The notes under the pieces: generated by a model
Told to the model about the DNA's origin: nothing
Seen by the model: only the letters and a program-made list of their open reading frames with translations
Databases searched by the model: none
In this document: in pieces, positions 13,788 through 30,974 of the stretch
Layout of the letters: every line of letters begins with the position of its first letter
How positions within the stretch are numbered: the first letter of the stretch is position 1
Origin: Haloarcula marismortui ATCC 43049
GTDB lineage: Archaea > Halobacteriota > Halobacteria > Halobacteriales > Haloarculaceae
Assembly (NCBI RefSeq): GCF_000011085.1
Contig: NC_006393.1
Location: forward strand, 62,001 to 126,000
DNA length: 64,000 nt
Direction: 5' to 3'
Translations under genes and position numbers: made by a program

Positions 13788-15449
13788 ATGCAGTCGGGAA
13801 TAGGCGAGGACCTCGTTGAGGAGGTTTTCCAGAGATTGCTGAGAGAACTTTCGTCGGCAATCACATCTGGTATCAGTGGTTTCCTTGCTCAACTTAAAAC
13901 GCAGATAGTCAATTATCTTGATGGGTTCTTTAAGAACCTCATTGACCCGATGGTAGGGACACCCGCCCCCGAAGGACCGAATTCATCGGCCCCAGTTGAC
14001 ATTGCGTTCGAATCTGCGAGTAATGCCCCGTGGAACTCGCTAATATCGGGCATCTACTTCGATGGAATCGTTGGGTTGGCACTCGGGCTGCAGTTCATCG
14101 TCTTGGCAATGATTGGAGTTCGATACGGGTCGATGAACCCGGTCATTCGGAAGAAGCTCCTACGCCGACTTGGGGTTGCTTTCCTCTCACTGTTCTTTTG
14201 GCTTCCGGTAGCCTCACTGGGGACTCAGTTCTTCAATGCCATCGGTCGCGAGATTTACAAATCCGGTCAATCAACGACTGAAGTCGCCGCACTAATCGGC
14301 TCAGCCCAGCAGATTGCGGATCTCAGTCTTGGGATATTCCTCGTCCTCATCGTTGTCGGACTGTACGTCTACCTCAAGGCGGCGTTCATCTTCATCACTC
14401 GGTGGCTGCTGGTCTTCCTGCTGACCCTCTCGATGCCGCTGGTTGCGACGTTCTGGGCAGTCGAAGTCTGGCCGCTGAACCGCTTCTCGGGACTGGCGAA
14501 ACAGGTCGCCGGCGCGTATCCCGGAGTCCTCGCTGCGGGCATCCCGCCTGCAATCCTGATCCGCATGAGCTTTGAAGCGACAAACTGGGGACTGGCTTCT
14601 GACCTGTCGCTGTTTATCAGCCTCGTGACGCTGTACTTGGCGGCAAAATCTCAGAAGGTCCTCATCCAGCGCAGTAGCCGCGTTGCGATTCAAGTCAGCG
14701 AGCAGGCGCTCGCCGGCGGCAAAAAGCCACTCAAGATCGGTGCGGCGGCTGGTGGTGCAGCGGCGACAGCCGGCGCTGGCGCGGTCGGCGGTCCCGGCGC
14801 AGCAATGGCGACGGGTGGCACGATTCGAGCTGCCTCAGGCGCTGCAAAAGGACGTGTCGGCAGTGCTGCTACGGGTGCCCAAATGGTCCACCGCCAGATG
14901 GCAGCCAACCCCGCTGGCATGAAGAGGGGTTCTAGCGGCGGCCCCAACGGCTCCGGAGGTGGCGGCAACAATGGCTCCGGCGGCGGTGGCTCCGGTGGCT
15001 CAGGCGGTTCCGCTCCGCCTTCTGGCGGCGGCAGTGGCAGTAGCGGGTCTGGTGGCTCTGGTGGCTCACCACCCTCTGGCGGCGGGAGCGGGTCCGGTGG
15101 AAGTCCCCTCAACAGCCGATTCACCAACGGTGGTTCGTCCGACTCGTCTGGCTCGTCTGGCGACTCCGAGAGTGACGACACTCCGATTAGTGAACGCCAG
15201 ACGAAGATGGAGCGCCAAACCAAGATGGAGCGCCAAACACAGATCAACTCTGGCGATACCAGAGTGTTCGAGTCTGAGGTTGATCCGCCGTTCTCCGACG
15301 ATGACTTCGACGAGAACGATACCGAGACTACGGAGTCCGATGAGTCCGAGTCGTACGACTCGCTCAGGGATGTGTTTGCAACTGATGACGATATATTAGG
15401 GCCGGATGTGTACCGCGACGGCCTCCCTCACAAGGAGGATGACGACTAA
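13788..15449 (+). CDS. virB6-like: VirB6/TrbL-like polytopic channel protein
   Basis: A 553-residue protein. After an amphipathic N-terminus come about six hydrophobic segments between residues 85 and 290 (IVGLALGLQFIVLAMIGV, VAFLSLFFWLPVASLG, LGIFLVLIVVGLYVYL, WLLVFLLTLSMPLVATFWAV and others). An Ala/Gly-rich segment follows, then a long Gly/Ser-rich disordered region (residues 380-450) with a short KMERQT repeat, and an acidic tail. Polytopic membrane core plus long soluble tail is typical of VirB6/TrbL inner-membrane channel proteins. The gene ends exactly at the VirB4 start (TAATGG), indicating translational coupling. Confidence 0.75.
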   Translation: MQSGIGEDLVEEVFQRLLRELSSAITSGISGFLAQLKTQIVNYLDGFFKNLIDPMVGTPAPEGPNSSAPVDIAFESASNAPWNSLISGIYFDGIVGLALGLQFIVLAMIGVRYGSMNPVIRKKLLRRLGVAFLSLFFWLPVASLGTQFFNAIGREIYKSGQSTTEVAALIGSAQQIADLSLGIFLVLIVVGLYVYLKAAFIFITRWLLVFLLTLSMPLVATFWAVEVWPLNRFSGLAKQVAGAYPGVLAAGIPPAILIRMSFEATNWGLASDLSLFISLVTLYLAAKSQKVLIQRSSRVAIQVSEQALAGGKKPLKIGAAAGGAAATAGAGAVGGPGAAMATGGTIRAASGAAKGRVGSAATGAQMVHRQMAANPAGMKRGSSGGPNGSGGGGNNGSGGGGSGGSGGSAPPSGGGSGSSGSGGSGGSPPSGGGSGSGGSPLNSRFTNGGSSDSSGSSGDSESDDTPISERQTKMERQTKMERQTQINSGDTRVFESEVDPPFSDDDFDENDTETTESDESESYDSLRDVFATDDDILGPDVYRDGLPHKEDDD

Positions 15450-18400
15450 TGGCTGACTCAGAAGAAGAGTACAACACGAACATCATTCACGAATCCCTCG
15501 GAGACACGACCAACTTCTGGGGGGACTACACGCTGGGGGAACTCATCCTGTTCCTCATCCCGCCCTTTGGCTTCCTCGTCGCGATGGGGATGCCATTCGT
15601 GCCAGCGGCGCTGTTCTTCCCCACGTTGGCTCTCACAGCGGTCGTGGAAGTGTTCCTCTACATCCTGCACAAAGTCCGGCCAGATCACTATCGCCTGACT
15701 GAGTGGCTGCGGGTCAGACTGTTCTGGCTCGTCAAGAAGAAGCAGTACACTCACGGCCAGGGGAATCAGGACACTCGGCAGGTCACGCGACTAGAGCGGG
15801 TCATGCCCCACGGCATTGAGCGCATCGACGGAGCGTACGTCGGCGCGGTCGAGGTCGAGCCCGCCAATATGTCGCTGCAGGACGACGAGAAATGGGAGAA
15901 AGCCGTCAAGTCACTCACACGCCTGTCTGAATCCCTGACTGGGCGGGCGAAACTCCACGTCACGACGGCCGAAGTCGACAACGAGTCCCACATCCAAGCG
16001 CATATCGACCGACTCGACGACCCCGATGCAAAGAGCCATTCGATCTTCCGGGGCGTCCTCATGGAGTTCGTCAACCGCTACACCGACGACAGCGGCAACG
16101 TTGAAACTGAGACTGAACTCCAGCGCAAGTACTACATCGTCGTCTGGGTCACTGACGACGATATCCATGATCTCCAGATGAACAGCGACTCTATCGCGGA
16201 TTACTTGACCGGGATACCGGTTATTGGGCGGCTGTTCACTCGGTTCGACAGTGACACGCTCACTGACGCCGAGCGAGAGGAGTTCAAAGCCAAGAAGCTC
16301 CACGACCGGCTCGAAACCGTCGACAGAGCAGTCAACAATATGTTTCGGTGCCGTAGCCGGTCGGTCAGCCCGCATGAACTGGCGCACTTGACTGAGGACT
16401 ACTGGGCCTGCGAAACGCGGTCCGAGCGGGAGTACGAAGAGGCGGCCTCCGTCTCCCCGGTGACGTACTCGGCACGGGAACTCATCAAGCACGGCGAGGG
16501 TGCTACAGCCCATGACGCTGCGGAGGGCATGGACACCGACGACGTTGGCGGGACCGACTACGAGGTCGACGAGACTGACTTCGTCTCCCAACTGCACCGG
16601 CCCGGTGAGAACCATCGGTCACTGGTCGCGCCGACGGATATCGAGTGGGAAGTTGACCACGCCCTCATCGACCAAGAGACGTATACGCGGTGCTTCTGGA
16701 TCGAGACGTATCCCGAGCATCCGACGAGTGGGATGCTGGAGCAACTGCTGCTGGATACGGACCTCGCCGTCGACGTCTCAATCCACATCGACCCATACGA
16801 CGCTGATACAGCAGTGTCGGTGATGAAGGAGTGGATTTCCTCGCTGAAGATGCTGCAAAACGACAAGGGAGAGCTTGAAGCGGAGGATATCGAACAGGAG
16901 GTCCACCAGGCGAAGTACATCCGGCAGATGGTTCGGCGGAACCACACGTCGCTGTTCCGTGTCGGGGCGTTCATCCGGCTGACTGCGGAGACCGAAGAAG
17001 ACCTCCGGAAGCAAACGAACCGGCTCGAAACGCTCCTGCGAGACTCGCCATCGAACTGCGGGGTCAAGCGAACGACCCGCCGGCAGGAAGCAGGACTGGT
17101 GACCGTCTCGCCGATCGGGGCCAACGAACTGGGCCAGAATCGGCTTTCTTCGATGACCGGGGAAGCACTCGGGTCGCTGTTCCCGTTCTCGTCGAACTAC
17201 CTGCGGATGGAGGACGGCATCGAGTACGGACTGCACGGCCACAACGACTCCTCGCTGCTGATCGACCCGTGGGAACTGGAAACCGGCCACTCGGAGCTGG
17301 TGACTGGGATGCCCGGCGGCGGGAAGACCCACGGTACGCAGGCTCGGGCGATGCGGATGCTGAAAAAGCGGTCGGACGTCAAGCAGATCTACATCGACCC
17401 GGTCGGGGATATGCATGGCAGCGCGAAGATGCTGGATGCAAAGACGATCACAATCAGCGGCGAGACGCCGTTGAACCCGTGCGAGATGCATCCGACGCCT
17501 CAGCATGTCCTCGAACAATCCCCGGATATGCAGCCCGTCTCCGCCAAGAAAGACGAAGTGTACGGGGTCATCGAGAACTTCCTGCAATCCCGGGATGTCG
17601 ATCTGGAGATGCACAGCGGCCTCATCACGTTCCTGATCGACAAGATATTCTCCGAGTCCGATATCGACCCAGCGGACCCGTCGACACATACGCCGGAGAA
17701 CTCGCCGGACCTGAGTGACTTCCTCGAAGTCGTCGACCGCCTCCAGGAAGAGCCAGAAATGTTCCCGGGAGCGACGACAGAGTCCTCCCAGCAGAAAATC
17801 CAGCAGTACGCAAACGAACTCTCGATTGCGCTGCATCCGTTCCGCCCGGGGAGTACGTTCGGCAACCTCTCGAAAGAGTCGGACCTGCGGCTGATCGACG
17901 ACAGCAGCAAGGCCGTCTATCTGGACCTCCAGCAGGTCGAAGGCTCGGGGAGTGGCCTCGGCAAGCAGTCGTTCATTATGCAACTGCTGTTGTCGACACT
18001 GTACCAGCAGGCGAAAAATATGCAGCAGAAGGTCGAGATCATCATCGACGAAGCTCACTACCTGTTCAACGACGACGCAAATCTGGAGTCGCTGAACCAG
18101 ATTGCTCGCCACCAGCGCCACGCTGGACTCCGGCTAGTGATGCTGTCCCAGACGCTCTCGGAGTTCGAGGACAAGGGCGCAGCCGAGGAAATCGCGGGAA
18201 TGTGCCCGATCAAGGTGCATCACCGCGAGCCAGAGCTAGGCGACGAGACAGCAACAAGCGCTGGACTGACGGACGAACAGCAGTCCTACATCCAGCACGC
18301 CGAAGCCGGCAAGGAGTCACTGGGTGACGGTCAGGGCTACTCGCAAGCGTTGGTTCGCGTCGACGAACATGGCGATTACCCGCTGACAATCAAGACGTCG

Positions 18401-18715
18401 TGGGAAGAGAAGCAGATCATTGACCTCGACGCTGATGCGGAAGATGCGCTTGACGTTGTTGCTCACGAGGCCGACTCTCGCGCTGCTGATTTCGAAGAGT
18501 TCGTACGCTCGAAAGCGGTCGAGCAAGAGCTAGCGAATCGTGGATTGTCCCCCGAGAAGGCTGAACACGTCCTCAACGGACTCAGCGAAGACGAGTTGGT
18601 GGATGTGGTGTCTGTAGCGCTTGACCAGACACAGCCAGAAGCAGTTGTCGCTGACGGTGGTATCGAGGCAGAGACTGATACGGAGTTTGACACTACGGAG
18701 AATTCAAATGAGTGA
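15449..18715 (+). CDS. virB4-like: VirB4/TraC-like secretion ATPase with VirB3-like N-terminal domain
   Basis: A 1088-residue protein. Residues 20-75 hold two membrane helices (LGELILFLIPPFGFLVAMG, ALFFPTLALTAVVEVFLYIL) before the soluble domains, resembling a VirB3/PrgI-type domain fused to VirB4. A CagE/VirB4 N-domain follows. The ATPase has Walker A GMPGGGKTHG with Lys626, Walker B VEIIIDEAHYLF with Asp867-Glu868, and a RHQRHAGLRLVMLSQ segment, all features of the VirB4/HerA superfamily. It should power pilus assembly and substrate transfer at the cytoplasmic membrane. It overlaps the previous gene by one base and the next by eight. The large antisense frame over it is a GC-composition artefact. 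Confidence 0.92.
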   Translation: MADSEEEYNTNIIHESLGDTTNFWGDYTLGELILFLIPPFGFLVAMGMPFVPAALFFPTLALTAVVEVFLYILHKVRPDHYRLTEWLRVRLFWLVKKKQYTHGQGNQDTRQVTRLERVMPHGIERIDGAYVGAVEVEPANMSLQDDEKWEKAVKSLTRLSESLTGRAKLHVTTAEVDNESHIQAHIDRLDDPDAKSHSIFRGVLMEFVNRYTDDSGNVETETELQRKYYIVVWVTDDDIHDLQMNSDSIADYLTGIPVIGRLFTRFDSDTLTDAEREEFKAKKLHDRLETVDRAVNNMFRCRSRSVSPHELAHLTEDYWACETRSEREYEEAASVSPVTYSARELIKHGEGATAHDAAEGMDTDDVGGTDYEVDETDFVSQLHRPGENHRSLVAPTDIEWEVDHALIDQETYTRCFWIETYPEHPTSGMLEQLLLDTDLAVDVSIHIDPYDADTAVSVMKEWISSLKMLQNDKGELEAEDIEQEVHQAKYIRQMVRRNHTSLFRVGAFIRLTAETEEDLRKQTNRLETLLRDSPSNCGVKRTTRRQEAGLVTVSPIGANELGQNRLSSMTGEALGSLFPFSSNYLRMEDGIEYGLHGHNDSSLLIDPWELETGHSELVTGMPGGGKTHGTQARAMRMLKKRSDVKQIYIDPVGDMHGSAKMLDAKTITISGETPLNPCEMHPTPQHVLEQSPDMQPVSAKKDEVYGVIENFLQSRDVDLEMHSGLITFLIDKIFSESDIDPADPSTHTPENSPDLSDFLEVVDRLQEEPEMFPGATTESSQQKIQQYANELSIALHPFRPGSTFGNLSKESDLRLIDDSSKAVYLDLQQVEGSGSGLGKQSFIMQLLLSTLYQQAKNMQQKVEIIIDEAHYLFNDDANLESLNQIARHQRHAGLRLVMLSQTLSEFEDKGAAEEIAGMCPIKVHHREPELGDETATSAGLTDEQQSYIQHAEAGKESLGDGQGYSQALVRVDEHGDYPLTIKTSWEEKQIIDLDADAEDALDVVAHEADSRAADFEEFVRSKAVEQELANRGLSPEKAEHVLNGLSEDELVDVVSVALDQTQPEAVVADGGIEAETDTEFDTTENSNE

Positions 18716-19085
18716 CAAAGTTACAATTCGGCTGAGTACAGAGCAGCGAAAAGAGATCGCGAAGCAGGCTAACAAAACGGGAGAAGGGGTTTCAGAGTAC
18801 ATTCTGAAAGCTACGGAACAGCGTATATCTCGTGAACTACAGGAACAGCGTGCGGGGGAACTAAATCTTGGATCGGAACTGGACTACATCGCTGATGCCG
18901 TCGTCGAAGACGTTGAGGAAGCAACAAACGTTGACACGGAGCAGGAACTGTTCTACTCGGTCGCTCTGTGGGATTTAATAGCCTCTGAGTTCCCGGCAGA
19001 CAAGCGCGCTACTGCGATGGAGGAAGCGACTGGTAAACTAGAGGAAGAGGTTGAAACCATCCGAAACAAGGAGGGTCAGGAATGA
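18708..19085 (+). CDS. Ribbon-helix-helix protein, putative relaxosome accessory
   Basis: A 125-residue protein starting at ATG 18708, overlapping the VirB4 stop. Its first 45 residues (VTIRLSTEQRKEIAKQANKT, then GVSEYILKATEQRI) fit a ribbon-helix-helix DNA-binding fold: one beta strand and two helices. A longer acidic helical region follows. Small RHH proteins encoded next to relaxases (MobC/TraY/NikA-like) typically bind oriT and help load the relaxase. Position two genes before the relaxase suggests that role here (inference). The stop overlaps the next start (ATGA). Confidence 0.72.
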   Translation: MSDKVTIRLSTEQRKEIAKQANKTGEGVSEYILKATEQRISRELQEQRAGELNLGSELDYIADAVVEDVEEATNVDTEQELFYSVALWDLIASEFPADKRATAMEEATGKLEEEVETIRNKEGQE

Positions 19086-19555
19086 CTGAGAGACGCACTC
19101 TACTCCAGATTTACACGACCGAAGAGAACAAAAAATTGTTTGACCAGCTGGCTGACGCCGCGGGGACATCCACCTCCGAATATGGACACGAGGTTATCGA
19201 GGACTACGTTGAGTGGGAGACTGGAGAGAGTCAGTATCAGCGGTACAGCACTAACACAAAAATCGAAGCTCTGCTGGAGGAGGCAAAACGCGAGGTGACA
19301 GAGCTGTTAGAAGAATTTGAGTCTGGAACAATGGAGGAGGTAAAAACCGTCCAAAAAGTCCGGACGGCATACACCATCGCGATCTGGAAACTGATTCAAG
19401 ATGACTATTCAGCTGAACAGCGACGGCTTGCGCTGAAATTTGCCGGCGAGCATGTTGGGAGAGATCCAGACATAGAATCGCAAACACCAGACGAGGAAAG
19501 CAACCCTGAGTCAGATGCCTCGACCGCTGCTGAATCGGCAGGTGAGAGTGCATGA
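19082..19555 (+). CDS. Second small RHH-like protein next to the relaxase
   Basis: A 157-residue acidic protein, start overlapping the preceding stop. The N-terminal 45 residues (RRTLLQIYTTEENKKLFDQL, then TSTSEYGHEVIEDYVE) have the spacing of a ribbon-helix-helix domain but with weaker strand character. The middle is helical and shares a pattern with the preceding protein (VRTAYTIAIWKLIQDDYSAE against FYSVALWDLIASEFPAD), suggesting the two are paralogues. The C-terminus is a disordered Glu/Ser tail. Likely a partner of the upstream RHH protein in a relaxosome. It is tightly coupled to the relaxase gene (ATGATG overlap). Confidence 0.65.
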   Translation: MTERRTLLQIYTTEENKKLFDQLADAAGTSTSEYGHEVIEDYVEWETGESQYQRYSTNTKIEALLEEAKREVTELLEEFESGTMEEVKTVQKVRTAYTIAIWKLIQDDYSAEQRRLALKFAGEHVGRDPDIESQTPDEESNPESDASTAAESAGESA

Positions 19556-20307
19556 TGCTGAAAACAGATTATCAGGAGGGTGGTGCAGGGAACCTCGTCG
19601 ATTACATTCAGCGTGATCGCGAACAGGACGCCGGCGCGACGGTCGACCTCCGAAACCCCGCCGGGCGAGAACTGTCTGACTCAGAGGTGAATCGGTTTGT
19701 CGACAAGAGCCGCGAGTTCGGATTCCAGCGGCACATGATCGTCTCGCCAGACCCCACGGGACAATATTCGCCAGAAGAAGTCCGTGCCAACACTCGGGAC
19801 TTCATGAACAGTGAGTTTACACAGCAGCCGACAACCGACTGCGTGTATGGTGTTCACCGAGACACAGAGTTTCCCCATGCACATATCGCGGCGACTGGCG
19901 AGCGTGCGGAATTAGAAATGGGTCGGGAAGATATCCAGCAGATGCGCGAACAAGCAGCGACCGCGTTTGAAGAACCCGCTCGAACACGCGACCCAACGGC
20001 TGCCCCTCGCGATGCTCCGGAGGACATTGGCCGGGTCGTGGACGAAGAAGCTCGGGAGCAGTACCACGAGGCAGAACTATCGCTGAACCCCGAAGCCGAA
20101 AAAGCGCTCAAACGGGCGACTGAGAAGAGTCAACAGAAAGACGTCGGACAGCCTACGGCTGAGAAAGCGAGCGATGAGCGCCAAACTGAGCCACTCTCAG
20201 AACGTGCTGCGGAGAGAGCCGAAGAACAGGCGGCAACTGAACGCGAACCCGAAGTTGATATTGAACGCGAGCAGGAACCCGAACGCGAAGTCGGGTGGTG
20301 GCAGTGA
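19552..20307 (+). CDS. HUH-type relaxase (MobA/MobP-like)
   Basis: A 251-residue protein. Key segments: an N-terminal GGAGNLVDYIQRDRE with candidate catalytic Tyr18; a central FQRHMIVSPDP strand; and YGVHRDTEFPHAHIAATG with His102, Asp104, His109 and His111. This matches the HxD...PHxH metal-binding motif III of MobA/VirD2-type relaxases. The C-terminal half is a charged Glu/Arg-rich tail. A relaxase nicks oriT and stays covalently bound through the Tyr for single-strand transfer. It lies between RHH proteins and the coupling ATPase, the classic mobilisation order, with overlapping starts and stops. At 251 residues it is short and has no helicase domain. No experimental archaeal counterpart is known to me. 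Confidence 0.8.
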   Translation: MMLKTDYQEGGAGNLVDYIQRDREQDAGATVDLRNPAGRELSDSEVNRFVDKSREFGFQRHMIVSPDPTGQYSPEEVRANTRDFMNSEFTQQPTTDCVYGVHRDTEFPHAHIAATGERAELEMGREDIQQMREQAATAFEEPARTRDPTAAPRDAPEDIGRVVDEEAREQYHEAELSLNPEAEKALKRATEKSQQKDVGQPTAEKASDERQTEPLSERAAERAEEQAATEREPEVDIEREQEPEREVGWWQ

Positions 20308-22520
20308 GTTCTAGTTCCTCTGCACCACCGGGACAACGCTCTGGCGAAGTCCCGAATAGCCTCAAGTACGACAACGTCGTCGGGTTCGTCTGGGCCGGGT
20401 TCATGCTGTTGTTCCCGCCGATGATCGTCGACAGCGACAAGGTTCTCCCAAAGCGATTCTGGGCGTGGCGCTACATCTACCTCGGCTTTGGACTCATCAG
20501 CGCGGCGTTCTTCTACGACGTGCTTGTCCAAACTCCCAGCGCAGCGCTGTTGTTCCCGTTCGCACACGTTCTGGCTGCCATCTCAGTGGGGACATTGTTC
20601 GCTGGCTTCACCGTGCCCGGCCTGTCACTGCCGATGGTCTCGTACTCGACCACGGTGATCCTGTATGCCATCTCAATCGGTATCGTGTTCTCAGGGGAAC
20701 TACTCCGCCGGACCTCGCCGGAAATGCTCGCGATGAACCAGTGGGACCACGACGACGGAGAGTCCGTCGTCCCACTCGAAGAAGTCTCTCACGAACACGA
20801 AGAGGCCGAAATGCCGTTCACACTCGATCAGGATGTCTCAACGGCTGTCGTGGGCGAGACTGGGTCGGGCAAGACGTCGATGATGAAACTACTGGCCTAC
20901 CAGTTCCCGTATTACAGTAACACGGCAGTCATCGCTCACGATACCGGCGAGGACTTTCAAGCATTCTACGAGGAGTTGGGCTTCGATGTTCAGCGCATCC
21001 GCCACGAAGACAGCGACGTAGTCTGGAATCTGTTCAAGGACGCCGATTCAGAGTCGGACTTCCGAGAGGTCGCCGGCGCGATCTTCGGCGAAGCCGACGG
21101 CCACGACCCATTCCATCGGCCCGCAAAACAGACTTTCGCGGAGATGCTGATGTACCTCCATCTCAGCGCACAAAAGAACAATCGCCGTCACGCGCTCTGT
21201 CATGCCGATATCGTCTCACTACTCAACGAGGGCCACATCGCGCTCAAGAAAGCCCTTGACGAGTTCGACCGGCTGGACTCAGGTCATATCGACCCTGACA
21301 AGGGCAAAGGCGCACAGAACGTCTACCAGACTATCAAGGAGAACGTCGATCCCGTCTTCACCGGTGACTTTGGGGACTACGGGGAGTTCTCGCTGCAAGA
21401 GTACATCGAGAACCCGGAAGGCCGAGTCCTCATCATCGACTCGAATCCGACAGAACTGGAAACGCTCGGGCCGATGTACCAACTGCTCGTAGACTGGTCG
21501 ATCCGCTACGCGATGAATGCCTCGAATCCGACGGTCCATATCCTCGACGAGATTGACGCGCTGCCGGCGCTCACTCAGGTAACGAATCTTACGGCCCGAG
21601 GGCGGAAACACAAGGCTCGGGCACTAGTCGGCGTCCAGACAATCGGCCAGCTCAAAGACACGTATAGTACAATCTCTGGCATTGTCGGCAACTGCCCGCA
21701 GGGCGTTTACTTCGGTCCGGGTGACACTGAGTCGACGGACTTCATCCTTGACGAACTTGGCGAGAGTCGACAGTATGACCGGTCCGAGATGGTGTCGATG
21801 AGCCACCAGGGGCGCGGCGAGAACCCCCGAACACAGGCTCGGGACACGTACAAAGAGAAGGACAAGACGCCGGTCACATCCGGCCTGCTCCGAGACTTCC
21901 AGCCCGGTGAGTGCGTTGCCGTCTCTCGGACGACGTGGGTCCACGGGCAGTCTTATGAACTGGCGGACGTTCGCGATAGCCTTCCGGCGCAAGGTGCGGA
22001 GTCACCGGGCAGTTCGGAACTGGAGCCCTCTGAGGATGACACCGACATCGAGAGTGACAGCTGGTTCTCGTTCACTCGGGCCCGACTTGATGATGTGCTC
22101 TATGGCTCACTTGGTGAGGACGACGACGATGAGTCCAGAGAGAGTGGCCCGGATCGTGACGCCGAAGTCGAGCCGACCATCGACGCGACAGACGGGTTGG
22201 GCGACGACGAGTCGAGCGACCCACTCGACCAGACAACAGCAAACACTGCCGTCACGTCTCCGGACACAGATCACCCGAACCTATCAGATTCAGAAGATGC
22301 GTATGACGGTGGCGATCACGACCAGCAGTCCGACGACAACACTGGCGGACTCTTCTCTGAGCCGGACCCAGATCCCAGCTTAGGAGGGACGGAATCTGCC
22401 GAGCAGGAAGGTGGTGAATCACCCACTGAATCAGATGCAGAGGGGGACTCAAACGAGACTGAAGAGCGGGACGAAACTGAGTCAAAAGAGGAAGAGCGCG
22501 ACGTATCTGAGTTCATGTAA
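20304..22520 (+). CDS. virD4-like: VirD4/TraD-like coupling ATPase (T4CP)
   Basis: A 738-residue protein from the GTG at 20304, which overlaps the relaxase stop (GTGA); in-frame GTGs at 20295 and 20298 are also possible. Residues 20-130 carry several membrane helices (VGFVWAGFMLLFPPMIV, LISAAFFYDVLV, ALLFPFAHVLAAISVGTL). The ATPase has Walker A VGETGSGKTSMMKLL (Lys190), Walker B TVHILDEIDALPAL (Asp415-Glu416) and a RKHKARALVGVQTIGQL segment typical of VirD4/TraG coupling proteins. The last 170 residues are highly acidic and disordered. It would link the relaxase-DNA complex to the VirB4/VirB6 channel. It is the last gene of the operon; candidate oriT repeats follow. Confidence 0.88.
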   Translation: MSSSSSAPPGQRSGEVPNSLKYDNVVGFVWAGFMLLFPPMIVDSDKVLPKRFWAWRYIYLGFGLISAAFFYDVLVQTPSAALLFPFAHVLAAISVGTLFAGFTVPGLSLPMVSYSTTVILYAISIGIVFSGELLRRTSPEMLAMNQWDHDDGESVVPLEEVSHEHEEAEMPFTLDQDVSTAVVGETGSGKTSMMKLLAYQFPYYSNTAVIAHDTGEDFQAFYEELGFDVQRIRHEDSDVVWNLFKDADSESDFREVAGAIFGEADGHDPFHRPAKQTFAEMLMYLHLSAQKNNRRHALCHADIVSLLNEGHIALKKALDEFDRLDSGHIDPDKGKGAQNVYQTIKENVDPVFTGDFGDYGEFSLQEYIENPEGRVLIIDSNPTELETLGPMYQLLVDWSIRYAMNASNPTVHILDEIDALPALTQVTNLTARGRKHKARALVGVQTIGQLKDTYSTISGIVGNCPQGVYFGPGDTESTDFILDELGESRQYDRSEMVSMSHQGRGENPRTQARDTYKEKDKTPVTSGLLRDFQPGECVAVSRTTWVHGQSYELADVRDSLPAQGAESPGSSELEPSEDDTDIESDSWFSFTRARLDDVLYGSLGEDDDDESRESGPDRDAEVEPTIDATDGLGDDESSDPLDQTTANTAVTSPDTDHPNLSDSEDAYDGGDHDQQSDDNTGGLFSEPDPDPSLGGTESAEQEGGESPTESDAEGDSNETEERDETESKEEERDVSEFM

Positions 22521-22685: not shown

Positions 22686-22803
22686 AAATCGCAAGATGGC
22701 GGCGGTTTTCACCCGGTCTGAATCACCGGCAGTGAATCACCACCCCCGACTGACACAAACCCAAATCGCAAGATGGCGGTCGAATTATTCACCGAAAACC
22801 GCC
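22686..22803. repeat. Direct plus inverted repeat cluster, candidate oriT or regulatory region
   Basis: AAATCGCAAGATGGCGG occurs identically at 22686-22702 and 22763-22779. GGCGGTTTTC (22701-22710) overlaps the first copy and pairs with GAAAACCGCC (22794-22803). Between them are two GAATCACC copies. This lies 166 bases after the coupling-ATPase gene in AT-rich, gene-free DNA, a typical location and structure for a nic/oriT region. The nick site itself cannot be read from sequence. Confidence 0.5.
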
Positions 22804-22810
22804 GATGTAA

Positions 22811-23617
22811 GACACTCTTTATCTTGTCCTTTGGAGATTCAGTCGTGAGGCGGGCGCTGGAAGCAGCGGTACATAAGAAATAGAACATAAGAGTCGGTGA
22901 CGAACAGCGGACTTCAGGTAGAATAAAACCCGCCCACTCAGCCCCGGCTATAACTATTGGAGAACAGATATATCTCACCTCACTCCCCAGAGTCCGACCG
23001 GGACTGCACATGGCGGGCCAGCCCCACCGAGTGTCATGCGAGTCCACTGTGCCACGCACGTCGCCGGTCGCCGCCGTCTAGGGCCACGCCGATCACGACC
23101 ACACTCGAGTTGAGCCAGTGCTGGCAGACCCACGCTCGACCCTCGCTCACTTCCGCCCCTTCGTGGCGCACAACCCGGCAGCCACTGGCCGGCGACCGCA
23201 CCACTTTGTCCGGAGCTTTGTATCCGAACCCCAACAAGTACAACACGCCTTGTTTTCGCACTCTCCAAATACCGTAATTTAGTGCGGCATTCAGCCGGAG
23301 AACTGTCCGATTCCCGGCGGGGATCGCGCCCGCTACTGCAGGCACGATTGGACCGGCGTGAGGCGCGCGACCGCGCCGAGCGCAGCGCCCCGTCGTCCGA
23401 GTGAGCGAGAGTGAACGAGGACACGACAGACGAGCATCGCGAGTCTGTCAGTGGCGTCGCGCGCTGGGACGGTCCACCAGTCATCCAGCCTAGTTGCGCC
23501 CCGGCCGGCAGACCCACGCTTGCGATACACCTGGCACTCTGTGGGATCAGTACCTCGACGTGTGCCAGCTGGGGGAGCCACCCCAACCCAGAGCTTTTTG
23601 AGCGATGACGGACAAGT
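22811..23617. other. GC-rich gene-free region with dispersed repeat A
   Basis: No convincing gene on either strand. Long frames here have GC-rich composition without domains. At 23320-23390 there is a repeat (GATCGCGCCCGCTAC core, then a GAGGCGCGCGA core) found again at about 24675-24752. The function is unknown. Confidence 0.5.
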
Positions 23618-24554: not shown

Positions 24555-25029
24555 TTAACCAACATACCCGCGATCACCCGCCCAACGTTGGTTAAGACCG
24601 CTGCGCCACTCTCGCCGACGCCGGATCTCGACGAACCAGCCACGAATGCGGTTCCTGTCCACCTCCCGGCGGCAGGCCGGGATCGCGCCCGCTACCGCAG
24701 GCGCGATGGACCGCCGCGAGGCGCGCGATAGCGCCGAGCGGAGCGTACCGTCGGCGTCGCGCGCTGTCGCGACCCACCAGCCACTCAGCCCGGTTTCTCC
24801 CGGGCCGGCTGGCCCACGTCCACGCTCACACCAGGACATCGGCTCTCTCACAGCCCCCACCAGACTGACCCACGTTGACGCGCTGATGCGGTGGCGTGCC
24901 AGTCCGTGCGCGCGGTTGTCTCGCCGCCGCCCGCTGTGCCGGAGGCGGCGGCGAGGCCGCGTGCGCGAGCACCGTCGCACCGCCTGAGGAAGCCCCCCGC
25001 TCAGTGGGGGACGCCCTCGCTACCGGGCG
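24555..25029. other. GC-rich gene-free region with repeat B
   Basis: No convincing gene. At about 24675-24752 it contains the second copy of the repeat at 23320-23390 (shared GATCGCGCCCGCTAC and GAGGCGCGCGA blocks in the same order and spacing). GC content is high on both sides. Confidence 0.45.
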
Positions 25030-26181
25030 TTAGTCTGCGGAGTGGACCATGCCCTGATGGGTGGTGGCTCCATGCTCAGTGTCGAACAGGTCCGAACACC
25101 CGGGTTCAGGACAGCGGGCCTTCCCGAGCGTCACGGCGACCGCGCGGTCAGAATCCCGCTCGTTGGCCCACTGATGGGTGTCTGACTCGGCTTCCCATGA
25201 CGCCGCCGTTCGACTATCGCCGGACGAACCGAACGAACCGCCCCCGTGTCCAGTGGGCGCGGGACCGTCGCCGCGCTCGATGATGCACATGAGCGTGTCG
25301 CTCGTGACCGCCACCGTCTTGATACCGTTGTAGTCGTCAGGCTTGCCCCCGGAAATCCGAACTCTGTCGCCCTCGCGGAGCGTGCGCACCATCTCGCCGC
25401 CGTGCATGGACTTGCCCCAGACCGTGACCTTCGCGCTCGTTCCCTCGTCGTCCTCAATGTAGAGGACTTGGTACTGGTTCCGCGCGTCTGGCTCCGCGAT
25501 GATGTGGGTCACTTCGCCCTCGACCGTACACTCGTAGCCGTAGGGACTCACTTCGTCGATAGGCGTGGGGACTTGCAGTTCGTTCTGGGCCTCGTCCAAG
25601 ACAGTAAAGGAAGCCTCATACAGGCTGTTACAGTCGCCCATCTGCCCGGACACAAGGGCCGCGAGTCGGCGGCCTGCTGCCGCTCGTGACAGACTGGTTT
25701 TGTCTGCCAGCGTCGCGGCCTGCTGGTTGACTCGCGCCAGCGTGTCGCGGTCCATCCACTGCCGGGGGTCAGCCGGTGAGCGGAACCCGTCAGCCCGTCC
25801 GGTTTCGGCGTCGGTGAGCTGGCGAGCCGAGGCTTCGCGGTCGGCACCGTCGACGTGGGCGCGTGCGACCTCGGAGTGTCGGGCTTGCTCGGCTTCGCGT
25901 CCGTGACGTTCCTCCTGCTGTTCCAGCGTTTCGCCAAACCGCCGGTCCGGACCAACCTCGGTCGAGCGGGTCCAGTCGTAGTCGTATGCCTCCTCCTGAC
26001 GGGCGTAGAAGTTGCCACGGCTATCGCTACCCCGATTCATCCTGAAATCGAGTTCGTCGCCGTTTTCGGTCTCTGCGACCGCCTCTAGAAGCTGTTCGGG
26101 GCCACCGTCGACGTGGGCCGAAAGGGAAACCGTCTGGTTGCTTGCCGATGCTTTCTTACCGCTGGAATTGCTAGCGTACAT
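25030..26181 (-). CDS. OB-fold nucleic-acid-binding protein with C2H2 zinc finger (RPA/SSB-like)
   Basis: A 383-residue protein. Residues 214-298 form an OB-fold-like domain (YGYECTVEGEVTHII, YQVLYIEDDEGTSAKVTVWG, LREGDRVRISGGKPDDYNGI), as in archaeal RPA-type single-strand-binding proteins. The C-terminus has a C2H2 finger: Cys357, Cys362, His375 and His380. The N-terminal half is charged and probably helical. Single-strand binding would suit a plasmid with rolling or conjugative transfer (inference). The gene is transcribed away from a region with a 12-bp inverted repeat and a TATA-like TTTTTAAG at about 26310. Confidence 0.75.
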   Translation of the reverse strand: MYASNSSGKKASASNQTVSLSAHVDGGPEQLLEAVAETENGDELDFRMNRGSDSRGNFYARQEEAYDYDWTRSTEVGPDRRFGETLEQQEERHGREAEQARHSEVARAHVDGADREASARQLTDAETGRADGFRSPADPRQWMDRDTLARVNQQAATLADKTSLSRAAAGRRLAALVSGQMGDCNSLYEASFTVLDEAQNELQVPTPIDEVSPYGYECTVEGEVTHIIAEPDARNQYQVLYIEDDEGTSAKVTVWGKSMHGGEMVRTLREGDRVRISGGKPDDYNGIKTVAVTSDTLMCIIERGDGPAPTGHGGGSFGSSGDSRTAASWEAESDTHQWANERDSDRAVAVTLGKARCPEPGCSDLFDTEHGATTHQGMVHSAD

Positions 26182-29277: not shown

Positions 29278-29337
29278 AACTGGAGGTCAAGACGCTCTCT
29301 CTGGAACGCCTCTCGCCCGGCGGAGGCTCACAAAATA
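29278..29337 (-). promoter_or_regulatory. TTTTGTG-hairpin leader of the 29277 gene
   Basis: ATTTTGTG (29336-29329), then GCCTC-cgccgggcga-GAGGC. The ATG is 51 nt from the box, with GACCTCC and other purine-poor sequence between. The same leader, with substitutions, recurs at 30921-30928 without its gene. Confidence 0.6.
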
Positions 29338-29395
29338 CGGGTGAGTTCCCTTGTTGTCAGACTAAGATTGCTTTATTAGCTCGATCTATGCAATC
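29308..29395. repeat. Left copy of an imperfect duplication (leader plus end of a preceding gene)
   Basis: Aligns with 30891-30974: both contain GAGGCTCACAAAATACGGG, then a variable part, then a stretch that on the minus strand ends a reading frame with E-x-x-x-(K/E)-Q-S-stop. The left copy is the 3' tail of a lost paralogue of the 30951-31196 gene. The DNA between the copies (about 1.5 kb) carries the Mrr-like gene. No gene is seen in 29396-29655. Confidence 0.6.
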
Positions 29396-30890: not shown

Positions 30891-30974
30891 GTCGAAATCC
30901 ACCTCTTCCGGTAGAGGCTCACAAAATACGGGCGAGTCCGTGCTGTTGGGCTAGGATTGCTCTAGTGGCTCGAC
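30891..30974. repeat. Right copy of the imperfect duplication, with an orphan leader
   Basis: Counterpart of 29308-29395. Contains the box (CACAAAAT at 30921-30928 on the plus strand) and a GCCTC/GAGG hairpin, but the gene it should precede is absent; the next ATG on that strand is about 150 nt away (Mrr-like gene). Confidence 0.55.

Follow-up and report, generated by a model that had tools for sequence, protein, structure and literature searches.

A probable origin of conjugative transfer following the relaxase cassette of a Haloarcula plasmid

According to the analysis of a 64-kb stretch of DNA (hereafter, the window), which is part of a 132,678-base contig, positions 22686-22830 are very probably the origin of conjugative transfer (oriT) of a Haloarcula plasmid, with a probability of about 0.9. 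A sequence-only reading had placed a candidate oriT directly after the coupling-ATPase gene, and this proposal is supported by the conserved architecture of the element, its fixed spacing and its link with a relaxase cassette, as well as by the conserved catalytic residues of the relaxase.

22686-22830, + strand: proposed minimal oriT, architecture conserved in relatives

The window is nearly identical to the plasmid pHMA133 (pNG500) of H. marismortui, and its coupling protein shows 100% identity over the matched part with that of pHMA133 of Haloarcula marismortui ATCC 43049. Judging by strain and size, we take pNG500 and pHMA133 to be a single replicon. A 2011 survey of conjugative plasmids found only one of this class in archaea, namely, pNG500 (PMC3158045). 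The following transfer genes were identified.

15449-18715, + strand: VirB4-type ATPase (profile matches)
18708-19085, + strand: RHH1, NikA-like, below the Pfam cut-off (profile match)
19082-19555, + strand: RHH2, whose best solved profile matches are the RHH proteins AvtR, ORF56 and CopG (weak)
19552-20307, + strand: relaxase, PF03432, with invariant Tyr18, His102, His109 and His111
20304-22520, + strand: VirD4/TraD-type coupling ATPase (profile matches, annotation)

Each of these five genes overlaps the next; therefore, the candidate stretch is the first free non-coding DNA, and the upstream part of the cassette has no space for an oriT. The absence of genes from this stretch, noted previously, agrees with the near-identical pHMA133, where no gene is annotated. 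The relaxase passes the Pfam cut-off for PF03432, and the four residues listed above are kept in all aligned relatives. NCBIfam MobP1 was the best family for this protein, with a score far below the cut-off. Its predicted structure has middling confidence, and the best solved-structure matches, MobA of R1162 and MobM of pMV158, were weak; a profile search against solved structures found no relaxase. The matches of the RHH1 and RHH2 profiles to NikA and to solved RHH proteins were also weak. In addition, the MOB-suite program typed 20 of 21 plasmid records with this relaxase as non-mobilizable.

The non-coding DNA after the coupling gene contains the following features.

22686-22702, + strand: direct repeat copy 1, AAATCGCAAGATGGCGG (repeat comparison), kept in relatives; proposed RHH binding site
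22700-22710, + strand: inverted repeat, left arm, 11 bp, CGGCGGTTTTC, not kept in all relatives
22720-22741, + strand: two GAATCACC motifs (22720-22727 and 22734-22741), partly conserved in near relatives
22763-22779, + strand: direct repeat copy 2, AAATCGCAAGATGGCGG, with its start 64 nt upstream of the predicted nick; proposed RHH binding site
22794-22804, + strand: inverted repeat, right arm, 11 bp, GAAAACCGCCG, not kept in all relatives
22818-22828, + strand: nick core TTTATCTTG/TC (the slash marks the predicted nick, 22826/22827), from the locus alignment and comparison with the MOBP consensus (PMC3772185)

The 17-bp direct repeat and both GAATCACC motifs were thus found as described in the sequence-only reading, the two AAATCGCAAGATGGCGG copies being 100% identical with a spacing of 77 bp. 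The inverted repeat also exists, with arms one base longer than the 10 bp initially given. As for base composition, the 118 bases at 22686-22803 had been called AT-rich, which proved incorrect: their GC content is 54%, and the AT-rich DNA (40% GC) is the preceding 165 bases. Shuffling of the 330-nt region showed that a 17-nt direct repeat was reached in none of 5000 shuffles. With no limit on the distance between the arms, 433 of 5000 shuffles had an 11-nt inverted repeat, so that the inverted repeat taken alone is weak evidence; when its end had to be near the predicted nick, none of 200 shuffles matched. A structured RNA was considered and rejected, the one sub-threshold Rfam match being located elsewhere and no tRNA being found.

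The best-conserved part of the element, TTTATCTTGTC (22818-22828), lies just past the end initially set at 22803. The proposed location is supported, and the element reaches approximately 22830. The nick consensus of bacterial MOBP systems is (C/T)ATCCTG(C/T), with cleavage at the end of the core and attachment of the relaxase to the 5' end so created (PMC3772185). The corresponding sequence of the window, TATCTTG/T, agrees with this consensus at seven of eight positions, and the nick is therefore predicted at 22826/22827 on the + strand. Among 29 aligned sites, T-9, T-8, C-4, T-2, G-1 and C+2 are invariant, and position +1 is always C or T. Position -3, which is T in 28 of the 29 sites and C in MOBP, counts against this assignment. 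The pattern TTTANCTTGYC has 25 matches in approximately 0.9 Mb of locus sequence, and 24 of them (including two re-reads of the Haladaptatus plasmid) are at predicted sites. The sole off-site match among the loci, L015:1065 of Halorussus limi, is located 5.2 kb before the RHH gene and is possibly a displaced oriT.

The comparison of the element covered 13 plasmid loci, 8 more loci and 12 from genome contigs, with some duplicates; many of the loci are related, so their counts are not independent. In relatives with T4SS plasmids, the coupling-protein gene is followed by two same-strand copies of AAATCGCAAGAYGGC and then by the conserved TTTANCTTG/YC. The AAATCGCAAGAYGGC repeats have diverged in L028, L030 and L031 with the nick core retained, and the core of L029 and L030 reads TTTTACTTG/CC. 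The repeat-to-repeat spacing is 64/65 or 76/77 bp, and the distance from the start of copy 2 to the nick, where measured, is 53 or 64 nt. We infer that these steps of about one helical turn fit proteins that have to sit on the same side of the double helix. Homologous operons with coupling-protein identities as low as approximately 59% are accompanied by the repeats, so that the refuting outcome named in the sequence-only reading, their absence there, did not occur. No clear element was found directly at the cassette in Halorussus limi (L015) and Halobacterium noricense (L021), which counts against the oriT proposal. A DNA search of plasmids for more copies found the three closest relatives only.

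The inverted repeat varies in sequence among the relatives (for example, ACACGGTGTGAG and CTCACACCGTGT in L007). It was found beside the predicted nick in the window, L003, L007-L009 and L023, and did not exceed shuffles in many other relatives, which also counts against the oriT proposal; because of this absence or weakness, it was dropped as a defining feature. The conserved part of the element consists of the direct repeats at a fixed distance from the nick core, whereas the inverted repeat varies. Short repeats together with an inverted pair could also be left by an insertion sequence or MITE, yet the genome has no second perfect pair, and the conservation of a single site per plasmid in a homologous place with fixed spacing contradicts such an origin, which is the least probable explanation of all those considered here.

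In smaller modules consisting of one RHH gene, the relaxase and the coupling gene, the nick core is located 5' of the RHH gene; such modules were found in Haladaptatus, Haloarcula pHsi55, Halomarina and Halalkalicoccus. The best match of the repeat matrix, which was trained on T4SS plasmids only and gave background p values of 0.0004 to 0.04 in these modules, lies at a distance of 53 or 54 nt from the nick, on its 5' side, in all but one of the eight small modules, the exception being L014 with 49 nt. Since the core is 5' of the RHH gene here and after the coupling gene in the T4SS plasmids, the element travels with the relaxase cassette and not with one neighboring gene. The number of RHH genes equals the number of repeats, two in the T4SS plasmids and one in the small modules, a correspondence that is confounded by descent.

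The same comparison bears on two further explanations. The element could be a regulatory site that serves a downstream gene or RNA as promoter or operator; TTTATCTT would then be a TATA-like box, and the repeats would be operators bound by RHH proteins. RHH proteins are frequently repressors, the core includes TTTAT, and AT-rich DNA is located upstream. However, conservation runs on through CTTGYC, the core lies anywhere between 58 nt and more than 800 nt from the next gene, L007-L009 have their next annotated gene on the other strand, and the same element is found 5' of the RHH gene in other plasmids. In addition, no core-like motif with fewer than three mismatches was found elsewhere in the 64-kb window. 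Taken together, a regulatory role is very improbable. The simpler possibility that the region is only a terminator or a promoter, named in the sequence-only reading as the alternative, is unlikely for related reasons: no terminator-like site was found, the distance to the next gene varies, and the element is placed 5' of the RHH gene elsewhere. Direct repeats in plasmid non-coding DNA may also indicate iterons of a vegetative replication origin or a partition site. This is less probable still, as the orc1/cdc6 and ParA genes are approximately 20 kb away, predicted orc/cdc6-associated origins were already described for pNG500 (PMC3528665), and the element accompanies the relaxase cassette across differing plasmid backbones.

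A composite pattern was searched in 391 Halobacteria genomes; it had been built from Haloarcula loci, and the matches include some of these. The pattern gave 25 matches in 16 genomes, and the reversed control gave none. Of the 25 matches, 23 adjoin mating genes (22 a coupling gene and one a relaxase). The other two (L062 and L064) are on short contigs with neither a coupling nor a relaxase gene within the contig; orphan oriT copies were rejected as an explanation, being indistinguishable here from the effect of contig ends. A slightly stricter pattern had no matches in a viral contig collection. Two motif copies, L065 and L066 (G106:C1:830000-849000 and 950000-969000), were found in a single contig of 3.48 Mb. 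One is accompanied by a complete VirB4-RHH-relaxase-VirD4 set, and the other by VirD4 with no relaxase nearby. Because a complete gene set with the motif is present in a contig of this size, an integrated form seems to exist.

If 22686-22830 is the oriT, transfer could proceed as follows. The direct repeats would be occupied by the RHH proteins, whose genes immediately precede that of the relaxase, and these proteins would bring in the relaxase, whose Tyr18 would cut the + strand at TTTATCTTG/TC, with 22826/22827 as the predicted site. The relaxase would remain attached to the new 5' end, and the coupling ATPase would pass the cut strand into the T4SS with the 5' end leading. With this direction of transfer, DNA to the right of 22827 would be the first to reach the recipient, and the transfer genes would follow at the end.

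The predicted leading side contains same-orientation copies of a GC-rich non-coding element (23316-23395 with 23453-23518; 24675-24753 with 24753-24818). This element is present in one to four copies in relatives and, within the genome, in this plasmid only. Its role as a folded single-stranded DNA promoter was rejected, as the DNA fold is no better than that of shuffles (z = -0.08). A 68-bp direct repeat with 79% identity is also located on this side (29317-29384 and 30908-30973), as is the following gene.

25030-26181, - strand: OB-fold protein, annotated as SOSS complex subunit B, encoded by one of the first genes on the predicted leading side

This gene is on the strand opposite to the transfer genes and recurs in L001, L002, L003, L005 and L006. 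The leading side of pHMA133, pHsi139 and CBA1115 plasmid 4 contains long gene runs opposite to the coupling gene, which include an OB-fold single-stranded DNA-binding protein; opposite-strand gene runs with such a protein were described for bacterial leading regions (PMC11541004). This resemblance is only suggestive, since L002 and L004 have no clean leading-side gene run. A broader proposal would give haloarchaeal plasmids a complete bacterial-style relaxosome together with a leading region adapted to expression from, or priming on, single-stranded DNA as it arrives, with 23316-23518 and 24675-24818 as an archaeal counterpart of Frpo/ssi and the OB-fold protein gene entering early; we regard it as rather unlikely.

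Among known systems, the element resembles the MOBP-type oriT (RP4/IncP TraI, Agrobacterium VirD2, H. pylori tfs4) in the ATC(C)TG/Y-like nick core with repeats 5' of the nick and in the VirD2/MobA-type relaxase with an adjoining RHH accessory protein. It differs in T instead of C at -3, a variable -5 position, two direct repeats at fixed helical steps, its placement behind the coupling gene when a T4SS is present on the plasmid, and the archaeal host. As in R64, where NikA precedes NikB, a NikA-like RHH gene is located immediately before the relaxase gene, whereas the haloarchaeal RHH1 is below the Pfam NikA cut-off and the T4SS plasmids have two RHH genes. The oriT of R64 also has a repeat upstream of the nick, as in the haloarchaeal element. 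The conjugative plasmids of Sulfolobales and Thermococcus (pNOB8, pT33-3) are likewise archaeal and encode VirB4- and VirD4-like ATPases, but have no recognized relaxase (PMC9905601, PMC12857230), in contrast to the relaxase and oriT-like element of the haloarchaeal plasmids. A literature search at the title and abstract level, covering open-licence papers, found no archaeal or Haloarcula oriT; an earlier description elsewhere is possible.

Archaeal conjugative plasmids have been described as lacking recognizable relaxases, and archaeal conjugation as possibly working differently from that of bacteria (PMC9905601, PMC12857230). The conserved oriT, its MOBP-like core and the catalytic relaxase residues suggest that the mechanism of bacteria, in which a relaxase leads a single strand, is also present in haloarchaea. 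The predicted nick, given to one base, provides a precise and testable place for archaeal mating. If the haloarchaeal oriT works, mobilizable vectors would be possible, and its motif would mark transferable plasmids that are now mostly typed as non-mobilizable.
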